DNA of 64,000 nt from Chloroflexi bacterium HGW-Chloroflexi-10. GTDB taxonomy: Bacteria; Chloroflexota; Anaerolineae; Anaerolineales; Anaerolineaceae. Positions 8,605 through 11,612 of the stretch are shown here, one piece after another. The translations under genes were made by a program, and so were the position numbers. Below the pieces are notes generated by a model. It searched no databases. It worked only from the letters and a program-made list of their open reading frames with translations, and was not told the DNA's origin. The DNA is taken from NCBI GenBank assembly GCA_002840755.1, contig PHBZ01000007.1, forward strand, positions 1-64,000, read 5' to 3'. Each line of letters starts with the position of its first letter. Positions within the stretch are counted from its first letter, which is position 1.

Positions 8605-9477
8605 TTATTCCACAGGACTGGCAGCTATGATCAAACGGTGGGTGTTGGAATAGCTTGGCCAACAGGTCACGATGGTTAAACGCTCATCCGCTGAAGGCAT
8701 AATCCAGCGGGCATTTTCCAGACGGGTTTCTACCGAAGCGTCTCGTTCCGGAACGATAATGACATTGGTAACAATATAACTGTAGCTTTTAAAATCATCC
8801 CCATAAACGGAAATCAGGTCCCCTACAACCAGTTTGTCCAAATCTTTAAATACTTCGCCATATACATTATGATGTCCATTGAAAACCATATTCCCAATTT
8901 GACCCAAACCAGCCGAATCGGAATGCCAGCCAACGGCATATTCATCTGGTGCGTTCCATTGAATGTAGTTAACATTTTCCACAGCTATATCTTTATGGGC
9001 AGCTTCGATGATCGGTGCATCCAGATCTATCGCCGGAATAATCATATTGCGCGGTACCACCAAAACCACTTCCATAATGGTTTCAGGATTCTCAGCTTCG
9101 TCTTGAATTTGTTCAATCCGAACCGGCAAAAAACCATCAGCTTCGTTTGTGCTCTGTGTGGCTATTGCAGTTGGAGTGCTCAATACGCTTACCAATGCGT
9201 TTTCAGATACCGGGTTGATAATCTCATTGGCTTTTTCCTGCCTAGTTAGAAGGTTGCTGGTTTCCGATTGAATCGAGGCCAATTGTTGGTGTTGAAATGC
9301 CTGGAAATTTTCTATGGAAATAATTCGCAAATCAAAAAGGGTATTATAAAAAGCAATGATGAGCAGCACAGATCCAAAAACAATCAACGCATTTTGAAAA
9401 AATGTGTTCAAAAGATTTTGTTCTTTCACCTGGACACTGTTAACAGTGTCCAGGCTCTGGTTGAGTATGTTATTCAA
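8605..9477 (-). CDS. Sortase-family transpeptidase
   Basis: The protein is about 290 residues. A hydrophobic N-terminal anchor (residues about 29-46) is followed by a linker of about 90 residues and the sortase barrel (about 140-290). The catalytic set is visible: His in [17 protein letters not shown], Cys in LTIVTCWP, and Arg in NTHRLIIAA. The TCWP form is like class D/E-type enzymes. The gene overlaps the stop of the upstream surface protein by 8 bp, so the two are translationally coupled. The annotated start is a TTG at 9477; a GTG at codon 17, directly behind a 26-bp palindrome, is an alternative. The overlapping neighbour, with its C-terminal LIPVTG signal, is the obvious substrate. Confidence 0.88.
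9429..9454. promoter_or_regulatory. Perfect 26-bp palindrome at the start of the sortase gene
   Basis: Arms of 13 bp (CCTGGACACTGTT and its complement) meet at GTTAAC without a loop base mismatch. It lies inside codons 8-16 of the sortase frame and just before a possible GTG start. As mRNA it would fold into a strong hairpin that could lower sortase synthesis relative to its substrate, or it could be a protein site. Confidence 0.6.
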
Positions 9478-10525
9478 AGCGGCGTCTAATCCCTTGCAAA
9501 ATCAATCCCAATCCAACAAATCCTACACCCAGATTGAGCATTATTTCTCGTAAGACCCTACTGGTAGAAACTGGGGTAAAATCACCCCCGGTAACCGGGA
9601 TAAGCATAGCTTGTTGACCACTTGAGCCTGGAACAGCCAGAGTCGATATTAGTGTTGGACTAGTATTAGGCTCCTCGGGGATGGGTGTCTCTCCTGTAAC
9701 CGGAATAATTGGTGTAAATTCTGGACCACCCGGAGTGGGTGATTCAACCGGTATTTCCGTAGTCGGTGTAACTGGTTCTGGTGTTTCTGGTGCAGATGTG
9801 GGCGCATTCGGGGTCGGAGTTACCGGTGAGGGTATTGGATTTTGGGGTGTCGGTTCCTCTGGAATCGGCGTCACGGGTGTAGGTGTCGGTTCCCCTGGAA
9901 TTGGCGTCACGGGTGTGGAAGTCGGTACCTCTGGAATTGGCGTCACAGGTGTGGAAGTCGGTACCTCTGGAATCGGTGTCACGGGTGTAGGTGTCGGTTC
10001 CCCTGGAATCGGTGTCACGGGTGTAGCGGTCGGTTCCCCTGGAATCGGCGTCACGGGTGTAGCGGTCGGTTCTCCTGGAATCGGTGTCACGGGTGTAGCG
10101 GTCGGTTCCCCTGGAATCGGCGTCACGAGTGTAGGGATCGGTTCTTCCGGTGTCGGTATCACTGGTGTTGTTTCTTCCGGGGTCGGTGTTACCGGTGTAG
10201 AGGTTGGTTCGTCAGGAATCGGTGTCACCGGCGTAGTAGTTGGTTCTTCCGGGATTGGCGTTACCGGTGTAGAGGTCGGTTTGTCAGGAATCGGCGTCAC
10301 TGGTGAAGCTGTCGGGTCCTGAGGCGTAGGAGGTTTCTTTGTGGGGGAATCCTTATCGAGGCTTACAGAAGTTTGGCTTATGCTGGCGTTTTCCTGGCTC
10401 ATTGTGCGTGCCGCTACAGGAAAACTCACTACAGAAAGCAATAAAGCCGTTATGATGCTAGATACACCCAAAACATAACTTGCTTTGGTTAAGAAATGTA
10501 GAGTCGGACGCAAATTTTTAAACAT
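9470..10525 (-). CDS. Thr/Pro-repeat surface protein with LIPVTG sorting-like signal
   Basis: The 351-residue protein has an N-terminal signal peptide (hydrophobic at about 17-37, cut near PVAARTMS). A long region (about 60-260) of 12-residue repeats of the type [12 protein letters not shown] follows, a stalk likely to be extended and glycosylated. The C-terminus reads LIPVTGGDF, a 15-residue polar spacer, a hydrophobic helix ([16 protein letters not shown]) and IRRRFE. This matches the LPxTG-motif, helix, positive-tail order of sortase substrates, with LIPVTG in place of LPxTG. A second IPVTG occurs about 55 residues earlier. There is no folded domain, so it could be a wall-spanning stalk or adhesin. 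AAGGAG lies 8 bp before the ATG. The sortase gene overlaps its end. Confidence 0.85.
9850..10320 (-). repeat. 36-bp tandem coding repeats
   Basis: About thirteen units of 36 bp (12 codons, [12 protein letters not shown] type) are arranged head to tail. Units in the middle (about 9985-10135) are almost identical at the DNA level, those at the ends more divergent. This fits recent unequal recombination and predicts length differences between strains. Confidence 0.85.
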
Positions 10526-10700: not shown

Positions 10701-10982
10701 CTAACTGGATAGATGTAATTCATCAATTCTTACTTCCATGTCCTTGTCTTCAACTTCATTTACTTTGACAATTCCCAACAATTCCTCAAACATGGAATGA
10801 TAATTGACCATAGCCTGCCTGAGCTCTTCGGTTGAAGTCTTTTTTACTTGGTTCTTCAATGTGATAATATAAGCGTTATGGTAATTTGGAACAAAATTCG
10901 GATACATGACGGATAATTCCGCTGCCCGTTGCTCGAAATCCGATACTGCGAATCCACGAACGACCATTACTTCTGTAATCAA
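10701..10982 (-). CDS. Small hypothetical protein in the sortase locus
   Basis: The frame gives 93 residues from a TTG at 10982, or 88 from an internal ATG. It is rich in charged residues and probably helical (DFEQRAAELSVMYPNF, then QAMVNYHSMFEELLG). The open frame continues upstream to a TAA near 11018 without a good start, and no ribosome site is clear, so the N-terminus may be damaged. I do not recognise the family. It lies between the structured leader and the surface protein gene on the same strand and would be co-transcribed. The 175 bp to the next gene contain a stretch that reads [10 protein letters not shown], like the neighbour's repeats, perhaps a relic of a second stalk protein. 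Confidence 0.45.
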   Translation of the reverse strand: MITEVMVVRGFAVSDFEQRAAELSVMYPNFVPNYHNAYIITLKNQVKKTSTEELRQAMVNYHSMFEELLGIVKVNEVEDKDMEVRIDELHLSS

Positions 10983-11113
10983 CGGGCTGAAAGCGTCCGA
11001 TTTGAATCGATCAAATTACCACTCCATCTCTTCCAAACAACTTGCTTTAAGAGCAAATAAATCTTGTGTGATATCTACTATACCGTTATTGACCTTCACG
11101 AGGTATCAGTAAG

Positions 11114-11236
11114 AGGCTGATTTGTATGTAAGCCATTGATAAGATTATTTGTCAGTGTTTGGACTACATCCAAAAAATTCTAACAATACAAAGCTTCAAT
11201 TTTTCTCTTTATCACCGGTTATATACAAATCAGCCT
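11114..11236. repeat. Small element bounded by 18-bp inverted repeats
   Basis: AGGCTGATTTGTATGTAA (11114-11131) and its inverse at 11219-11236 match at 17 of 18 positions. They enclose about 87 bp of AT-rich DNA in the leader of the sortase operon. It could be a miniature mobile element or an invertible segment. Confidence 0.5.
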
Positions 11237-11337
11237 ACGGTGATTGTCTAAACGATTGTTGTTGCTGCTGTTTTAGCCTGTGACGGGTTAGCAATATCTG
11301 AAAAAAGTAATAATACAAATTTCTCCTAAAAATAAAA

Positions 11338-11363
11338 AAACCGGCTTAATTGTTAGCCGGTTT
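11338..11363 (-). terminator. Intrinsic terminator behind the tandem RNA element
   Basis: On the minus strand AAACCGGCT pairs with AGCCGGTTT across an 8-nt loop and runs into a T-rich tract (11331-11340). The ascending arm shares AAACC with the predicted pseudoknot strand of the RNA element at 11357-11427, so the two folds exclude each other in part. Confidence 0.75.
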
Positions 11364-11427
11364 CGCTACTAGGCTCTGCGAGTGCCTTCCCTTACGGGAA
11401 AAGCGACCATATCAGCACTCGTTTCAC
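11357..11427 (-). ncRNA. Structured leader RNA, copy A (riboswitch-like)
   Basis: Minus-strand RNA: stem CGAGUGC/GCACUCG (11415-11421 with 11379-11385) encloses GGUCGCU and a small UUCCC-GUAA-GGGAA hairpin. Downstream, AGUAGCGAAACC follows; AGCGAAACC (11367-11359) can pair back to GGUCGCU (11408-11402), giving a pseudoknot. Copy B at 11462-11556 has the same layout with compensatory base changes in the stem. The element is followed at once by an intrinsic terminator that competes for AAACC. This is the arrangement of a riboswitch or attenuator. It matches no class I can name with confidence. Confidence 0.6.
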
Positions 11428-11461
11428 TGCCTCTATAAGATATTAAACTGTTAAAGTGCAA

Positions 11462-11556
11462 CGGCCGATTGAATCAATCGGCCGGTTTCGCTACTTAGCT
11501 CTACGAGCACTCCTCCTTTTCAGGAAGAAGCGACCAAATCGTGCTCGTGTCAATGC
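11462..11556 (-). ncRNA. Structured leader RNA, copy B
   Basis: Same fold as copy A: stem CGAGCAC/GUGCUCG (11541-11547 with 11504-11510), GGUCGCU at 11535-11529, inner UCUUCC/GGAGGA hairpin, and AGUAGCGAAACC. Against copy A the main stem shows two compensated changes (U-A to C-G and G-C to A-U). It ends in a strong CGGCCGATTGA/TCAATCGGCCG hairpin (11462-11484) that has no good T-tract. A promoter lies directly upstream (11584-11612), so B is transcribed first and then A. Confidence 0.6.
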
Positions 11557-11583
11557 ATCCAATCAATGTATTTAACTTCTATT

Positions 11584-11612
11584 ATTATTACATATAATAT
11601 CCAATTTGTCAA
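11584..11612 (-). promoter_or_regulatory. Promoter of the structured leader / sortase operon
   Basis: On the minus strand TTGACA (11607-11612) is followed after 16-17 bp by TAATAA/AATAAT (11584-11590). Transcription would start near 11577 and pass through RNA copies B and A towards the surface protein and sortase genes. Confidence 0.65.

Follow-up and report, generated by a model that had tools for sequence, protein, structure and literature searches.

The class II cyclic di-GMP riboswitches of Clostridioides difficile (CD2831, CD3246 and cmrRST) are presented in PMC11477304 as ON switches; the genes that they precede encode sortase-anchored adhesins and a response-regulator system. Riboswitches of this class also occur in tandem, with 59 doublets and 9 triplets counted in one review, most of which, in Paraclostridium and its relatives, precede the gene of a surface anchor protein (PMC9481103). 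Going by the table in that review, c-di-GMP-II tandems belong with those that have multiple expression platforms, and they are treated there as pseudo-cooperative; the tandems for which it lists cooperativity are those for glycine and guanidine-II, and c-di-GMP-II is not listed with them (PMC9481103). For the class II RNA 3Q3Z, the ligand contacts given in PMC7288161 are A13, A14, U37, G39, U60, A61, C68, A69, A70, C71, C72, G73 and A74.

We analysed 64,000 nucleotides (hereafter the window) of contig PHBZ01000007.1 from Chloroflexi bacterium HGW-Chloroflexi-10, a member of the Anaerolineaceae. The Anaerolineaceae, a family of filamentous Chloroflexota, are common inhabitants of digesters and sediments. 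Two c-di-GMP-II-type aptamers lie in tandem here ahead of genes for a surface stalk protein and a sortase, and this tandem very probably switches transcription of the stalk–sortase operon ON at high cyclic di-GMP, where we infer the ligand, the direction and steepness of the response, and a transcriptional run-on of ~0.8 kb. The stalk would probably be made only at high cyclic di-GMP.

Layout of the locus

The original prediction placed a tandem structured leader behind a good promoter, with stalk and sortase genes downstream, and these elements were all recovered on the minus strand, as follows.

11584–11612, minus strand: sigma-70-type promoter-like site (TTGACA, 17 nt, AATAAT, with TG before the -10), 11 of 12 consensus positions, by consensus match alone
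11471–11569, minus strand: copy B, the 5′ aptamer, of c-di-GMP-II type (RF03169 40.7 bits; RF01786 41.7 bits, E 1.7e-7; model R1 74.2 bits, with this copy in the R1 training set)
11462–11484, minus strand: 10-bp hairpin after copy B, taking up C72 and G73 (-16.9 kcal/mol, matched by none of 200 shuffles)
11346–11443, minus strand: copy A, the 3′ aptamer, of c-di-GMP-II type (RF01786 44.3 bits, E 3.1e-8; RF03169 39.0 bits; model R1 70.6 bits, with this copy likewise in the training set)
11337–11364, minus strand: intrinsic terminator of copy A, GAAACCGGCU...AGCCGGUUUU plus U-tract (hairpin -14.6 kcal/mol, matched by none of 200 shuffles)
11323–11327, minus strand: AGGAG just past the terminator, ribosome-site-like, its role putative
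11114–11238: MITE-like element with inverted ends (AGGCTGATTTGTAT...)
10704–11009: gene fragment, covering the C-terminal 102 residues of a protein that has ~200 in relatives
9470–10525, minus strand: surface stalk protein, with a hydrophobic N-terminus and an IPVTG-type sorting-like C-terminus, both by eye
8605–9477, minus strand: sortase (PF04203, E 7e-24; closest in NCBIfam to a class E model, but under the cut-off of that model)

The promoter-like site ends ~15 nt ahead of copy B. Over the whole region there are 4 such sites, no more than chance, the mean of shuffles being 3.3; terminator-like sites number 1, against 1.0 in shuffles. The P3 stem reads CGAGCAC/GUGCUCG in copy B (11547–11541 with 11510–11504) and CGAGUGC/GCACUCG in copy A (11421–11415 with 11385–11379), with two pairs differing and both sides changed in each, which bears out the covarying stems of the prediction. 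The same holds for the pseudoknot proposed between GGUCGCU and AGCGAAACC, the letters of which are identical in the two copies and the pairing of which could be placed at 11533–11529 with 11492–11488 (copy B) and 11406–11402 with 11367–11363 (copy A). Aptamer positions A69, A70, C71, C72 and G73 correspond to 11487–11483 in copy B and 11362–11358 in copy A. Folded alone and without its pseudoknot, the copy A aptamer outdoes its shuffles only modestly (z -1.77, 8 of 200 shuffles as good); when the terminator is included in the fold the terminator form wins, as the model leads one to expect of the unbound state, and this is no proof of switching.

Assignment to a known riboswitch class

In an Rfam scan of the window, the single match over cut-off was that of copy B to RF03169 (c-di-GMP-II-GAG), at 40.7 against 40 bits. 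A match to a non-riboswitch family was sought in the same scan and none was found over cut-off; RefA9, mir-3047 and other matches, seen at a permissive threshold, were rejected as below cut-off, with the mir-3047 match falling on the MITE-like element's inverted repeat. Run over the whole genome, RF03169 gave the same 40.7 bits for copy B and 39.0 for copy A. At a permissive threshold both copies match RF01786 from its first position to its last (1–84 of 84), and when RF01786 and RF03169 are scanned together the clan match kept is RF01786 for both. The curated RF01786 cut-off of 53.5 bits, which is a curator's labelling threshold and no structural feature, is missed by copy A (44.3) and copy B (41.7) by 9–12 bits. 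Copies of the same bacterial class with the canonical pseudoknot pass that cut-off and align to the same model R1. In the RF01786 alignment, 4 of the 11 model pairs of P1 are non-standard in copy A. The motif had been thought only faintly like c-di-GMP-II aptamers, with the rest unfitting, and this has to be revised, as the whole RF01786 model fits both copies: judged by these matches, the window motif is of the c-di-GMP-II riboswitch type, a known kind and no new motif.

Relatives and covariation

The motif was expected to recur in related genomes with compensated changes, and both were found. RF01786 at E <= 0.01 matched 44 of 61 sampled Anaerolineaceae genomes (hereafter the family), 4 of them over cut-off, and at E <= 0.001 it matched 43 of 298 genomes of the bacterial class; RF03169 at E <= 0.01 matched 47/298 class genomes, and model R1 at E <= 1e-4 matched 59 of 301 in the phylum. 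The class RF03169, class RF01786 and family RF01786 searches gave no match in any of 14 control genomes; at E <= 1 two control genomes did match, below cut-off. An exact pattern of both pseudoknot halves, run against 84,980 named genomes, returned at least 119 stretches, and among the 80 matches listed the titles name Chloroflexi/Chloroflexota, Anaerolineae, Anaerolineales, Anaerolineaceae or the genera Ornatilinea, Bellilinea, Longilinea, Leptolinea, Levilinea, Thermanaerothrix, Pelolinea and Anaerolinea. This genome itself has four firm places, namely the window pair and a second tandem (C3:435232-435462), along with two weak ones at C38:1143-1245 (R1 30.3 bits) and C101:186803-186932 (RF03169 23.9 bits). 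Elsewhere, one genome carries up to three aptamers in a row, repeatedly within a few kb (L198, L183; G011:C5, C34).

For the covariation analysis, 74 copies were chosen (at most two a genome, with the core motif, 80–113 nt), of which 70, drawn from relatives and from this genome's second tandem, were aligned with the two window copies to give 72. Under the structure given above, pairing is seen in 82.4% of cells (64.6% in shuffles) and changes on both sides in 21 of 25 pairs (18.3 in shuffles). The covariation score reaches 0.534, as against 0.191 in shuffles and 0.10–0.16 with slid partners. Pairing by helix is 59.0% of cells for P1, 92.6% for P2, 94.4% for P3 and 99.2% for the pseudoknot, where selection on the core motif favours the 3′ half, though 120 of the 121 family matches outside the window pair carried that motif anyway; double changes occur in 2 of the 5 pseudoknot pairs. 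In P1 the inner 2–3 pairs are well kept and the outer part poorly, which fits a 3′ strand shared with the terminator, yet leaves P1 weakly backed. Since Rfam models match both copies end to end and the 72 aligned copies covary, the window motif stands beyond chance.

The pseudoknot letters were followed in two model alignments, A2 (124 copies, family and window) and A3 (113 class copies, two of which, L175 and L004, come from the family). An exact partner stands behind NGG in 117/124 and 100/113 copies, respectively. The form of the window, UCGC/GCGA, accounts for 113 copies in A2 and 11 in A3, and ACGC/GCGU for 4 and 59; UUGC/GCAA (13), UCAC/GUGA (10), the canonical GCAC/GUGC (6) and GCGC/GCGC (1) bring the forms to six. 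The UCGC/GCGA letters had seemed foreign to c-di-GMP-II, yet within this bacterial class the pseudoknot has been recoded with compensation in several ways, of which they are one; as read from the alignments, the series bridges the window type and textbook class II.

The ligand pocket and the GAG label

Six of the 3Q3Z contacts were placed by alignment (U37, A69, A70, C71, C72 and G73), and these are canonical in both copies. The RF03169 consensus has CGG...GCGAGACCG, that is C37 with G69, and the RF01786 consensus has UGG...GCAACCG; both window copies read UGG...GCGAAACCG, the canonical U37 with A69. We read the name GAG as referring to positions 69, 70 and 73. Taking pocket letters from the columns of the model alignments, this triad is AAG in 122 of the copies in A2, ACG in 2 and GAG in 0, with U37 in 124/124, and in A3 it is AAG in 106, GAG in 4 and something else in 3. 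The class search gave 95 places over the RF03169 cut-off, and of these 91 have AAG and 4 have GAG. As the placed pocket letters of the window are canonical and most places over the cut-off are AAG, the Rfam GAG label should not be read as a sign of changed specificity here.

The GAG pocket (G69) was seen in four aptamers from three genomes (L176, L177, L184), with CGG (C37) alongside in three of the four, and the pair U37-A69 may change jointly to C37-G69 in these. In L185 and L193, CGG is combined with A69. Two family aptamers (L106:601-705 and L145:4001-4110) have C at position 70 (GCGAACCCG), possibly a natural pocket variant.

Terminators and the proposed mechanism

The 5′ arm of the copy A terminator holds aptamer positions 67–73 (GAAACCGG), and so takes in the pocket and part of the pseudoknot, the shared strand on which the prediction had turned. 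The hairpin after copy B sits in the same place, is followed by UUGCACUUUAAC and has no U-tract, leaving copy A as the only one of the two window copies with an intact terminator. From its position and letters, the copy B hairpin appears to be a terminator whose U-tract is missing or decayed, and the first copy therefore probably gates weakly or not at all.

Terminators were searched for as a hairpin starting at the pocket, from A69 on, followed by a U-tract. They follow 93 of 113 single or last copies in the family (shuffled mean 2.2, maximum 4 in ten rounds) and 6 of 11 upstream tandem copies (shuffled 0.1); for the bacterial class the counts are 56/90 (shuffled 3.2) and 10/17 (0.5). The script left out six copies in which the core was not found, being the upstream family copy L096, where a terminator was seen by eye, and five others. 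The 5′ arm includes A69 in 89, A70–C72 in 91 and G73 in 93 of the 93 family terminators, and A69 in 35 and G73 in 54 of the 56 from the class. Pocket and terminator are thus mutually exclusive by construction, and an ON switch is predicted, in line with what PMC11477304 reports for class II in C. difficile; the transcriptional riboswitch originally proposed agrees with this.

By R1 the family arrays comprise 102 singles, 10 pairs and 1 triplet, where L119 is counted as a pair, as its first copy (an Rfam match) overlaps the second by one base and is absent from the R1 list. A terminator behind each aptamer is the mark of a pseudo-cooperative tandem, and this genome's other tandem (L113) has full terminators after both copies, whereas the window lacks one at copy B; the unusual trait of the window is this single intact expression platform.

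In the proposed mechanism, each aptamer would form a P1-P2-P3 fold with its pseudoknot. With c-di-GMP bound, the pocket would hold nucleotides 69–73, and the strand next to them would be tied up in the pseudoknot and P1; with no ligand, nucleotides 69–73 would go into the terminator as its 5′ arm, and transcription would stop at the U-tract of copy A, before the genes. About half or more of the tandems seen in relatives have a terminator of their own at the upstream copy, and there two gates in series would give a steeper response. Past the RNA, transcription would run ~0.8 kb to the stalk gene.

Downstream genes and the link to cyclic di-GMP

A 36-base repeat recurs about 13 times in the stalk gene, at 9849–10320 (80% matches), and the stalk protein has no match in Pfam or NCBIfam. 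The gene starts ~0.8 kb downstream of the RNA, with the gene fragment and the MITE-like element in between. The element has one full-length copy in this genome, 85% alike, at G000:C9:15627-15766, and five partial copies; near the C9 element is an 84% copy of the gene fragment with one stop, and homologues of the fragment at 47–56% occur in four other family genomes. There is no ORF of >= 80 aa behind the AGGAG for 0.3 kb, and no response regulator in the window locus within 4 kb. A regulator remnant between RNA and stalk was considered and rejected, as the 93-aa ORF there aligns to the L113 regulator over 13 residues with E 1.4 and resembles instead the end of the ~200-aa protein.

Among 113 family array ends, 89 of them with >= 3 kb of downstream sequence, a response regulator was found within 4 kb in 33 and within 400 nt in 32, a sortase in 20, and both in 16. 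The same queries at 93 class array ends gave 2 regulators and 0 sortases, which makes the regulator/sortase operon a family trait. From 110 family first ORFs, 96 remained after removing those >900 aa, those containing X and those of the window, and five short or cut ones were dropped; of the resulting 91, Pfam finds Response_reg with Trans_reg_C (OmpR-type) in 32. The rest are scattered, with at least 3 sugar transferases, 3 beta-helix, 3 DUF7507, 3 subtilase, 2 DUF11, SpaA, TSP repeats and 1 BcsB among the families listed (the first 25 of 47). An enrichment of hydrophobic N-termini was not upheld (69/110 family first ORFs against 138/285 controls), being weak and drawn from controls that overlap the cases. 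Orthology of the window locus with G351:C21 was also rejected, as the sortase match there sits before the tandem and not behind it. Outside the family, a protein that by eye resembles a response regulator follows class II aptamers with a GUGC-type pseudoknot half at L186:2013-2096 and L191:3646-3729.

The genes behind the RNA include c-di-GMP-like outputs, such as surface proteins, sugar transferases, BcsB and response regulators. GGDEF domains (E <= 1e-10) are present in 55 of the 61 family genomes, with 46 in this one, and each of the six GGDEF-free genomes belongs to the 17 that lack the RNA. The chance of this co-absence, computed by hand, is 2.2e-4 by genome and 0.017 by genus, the six genomes representing three genera of 40 and ancestry confounding the comparison. 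GGDEF is present and the RNA absent in 11 family genomes.

Alternative readings

The c-di-GMP-II-GAG class has a ligand that is possibly another signal molecule, and if the window RNA belonged to it, its ligand would perhaps be other too. The sole gathering-level Rfam match, that of copy B to RF03169, speaks for this, but C37 and G69 are missing from both copies, on which ground the variant was ruled out as a candidate, the clan match kept is RF01786, and the places over the GAG cut-off are overwhelmingly AAG, so that we regard membership as very unlikely. Still less credible is a structured repeat or protein-binding leader with no ligand at all, for although the motif is multi-copy in many genomes, the RNA class that it matches has a solved ligand complex, its pocket letters are conserved, its copies precede different kinds of gene, and the class and family searches found it in none of the 14 controls.

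The remaining readings concern how the tandem works, or whether it still does. Two aptamers might serve one expression platform, with copy B influencing copy A through cooperative or sequential folding and having no gate of its own. The copy B hairpin without a U-tract would suit this arrangement, as would relatives (the L119 triplet and the L082 pair) in which copies are packed 0–9 nt apart with no terminator between them. Against it are the full terminators of 6/11 upstream family copies (L113 included), and L096 by eye, and a decayed former terminator would explain the window with no need of cooperation; we hold it improbable for this locus. The broader idea that Anaerolineaceae have multi-aptamer c-di-GMP-II sensors, in which upstream copies (window copy B, L119, L082) cooperatively tune the folding of the last over a single platform, seems similarly doubtful. 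It is also unlikely that the element is a relict that once served a lost response regulator and no longer controls stalk and sortase: an orphan AGGAG follows the terminator, a C-terminal gene fragment and a MITE-like element have come to lie before the stalk, and there is no regulator within 4 kb, but in both aptamers the placed pocket letters are kept and the P3 stems and pseudoknots are complete, their changes being compensated, and a consensus scan of 11337–10525 found no other promoter-like or terminator-like site on the minus strand. Against the ON switch itself stand the weak P1, the RF01786 scores under cut-off, the single match over cut-off being to the GAG model, the absent regulator and the 0.8 kb between RNA and stalk. 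On balance, the tandem of c-di-GMP-II aptamers is real and probably working.

Comparison with known systems

That c-di-GMP-II riboswitches stand in tandem before surface genes is known from published work (PMC9481103), and what is new here is the lineage, the gene set and the first-copy terminator hairpin without a U-tract. A literature search returned no paper joining riboswitch, Anaerolineae and c-di-GMP, or c-di-GMP-II, Chloroflexi and riboswitch, with most subscription journals outside its scope. The interest is modest and rests on the lineage, the operon and an annotation trap: the surface stalks and sortases of Anaerolineaceae would be tied to a defined, testable signal, and the Rfam GAG model at its cut-off mostly catches canonical-pocket aptamers in this bacterial class.

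With RF01786 the window copies share the P1-P2-P3 and pseudoknot architecture (P1 less securely than the rest), the six placed pocket letters and a full-length match, and they differ from it in the pseudoknot (UCGC/GCGA, where RF01786 has GCAC/GUGC) and in a longer insert with a hairpin between the pseudoknot half and P3. The UCGC/GCGA letters are common to RF03169 and the window, and helped copy B over the RF03169 cut-off, whereas the consensus C37 and G69 of that family are missing from both copies. The Paraclostridium tandems, as the review presents them (PMC9481103), are of the same class and stand before the same kind of gene, but belong to another phylum; many of the Anaerolineaceae operons include an OmpR-type regulator and a sortase, and the first platform of the window has no U-tract. 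The C. difficile riboswitches, as described in PMC11477304, resemble the window in transcriptional ON control (predicted here) and in sortase substrates, and resemble many of its relatives in the response-regulator system; they differ in lineage, and that account of them does not mention a tandem arrangement.
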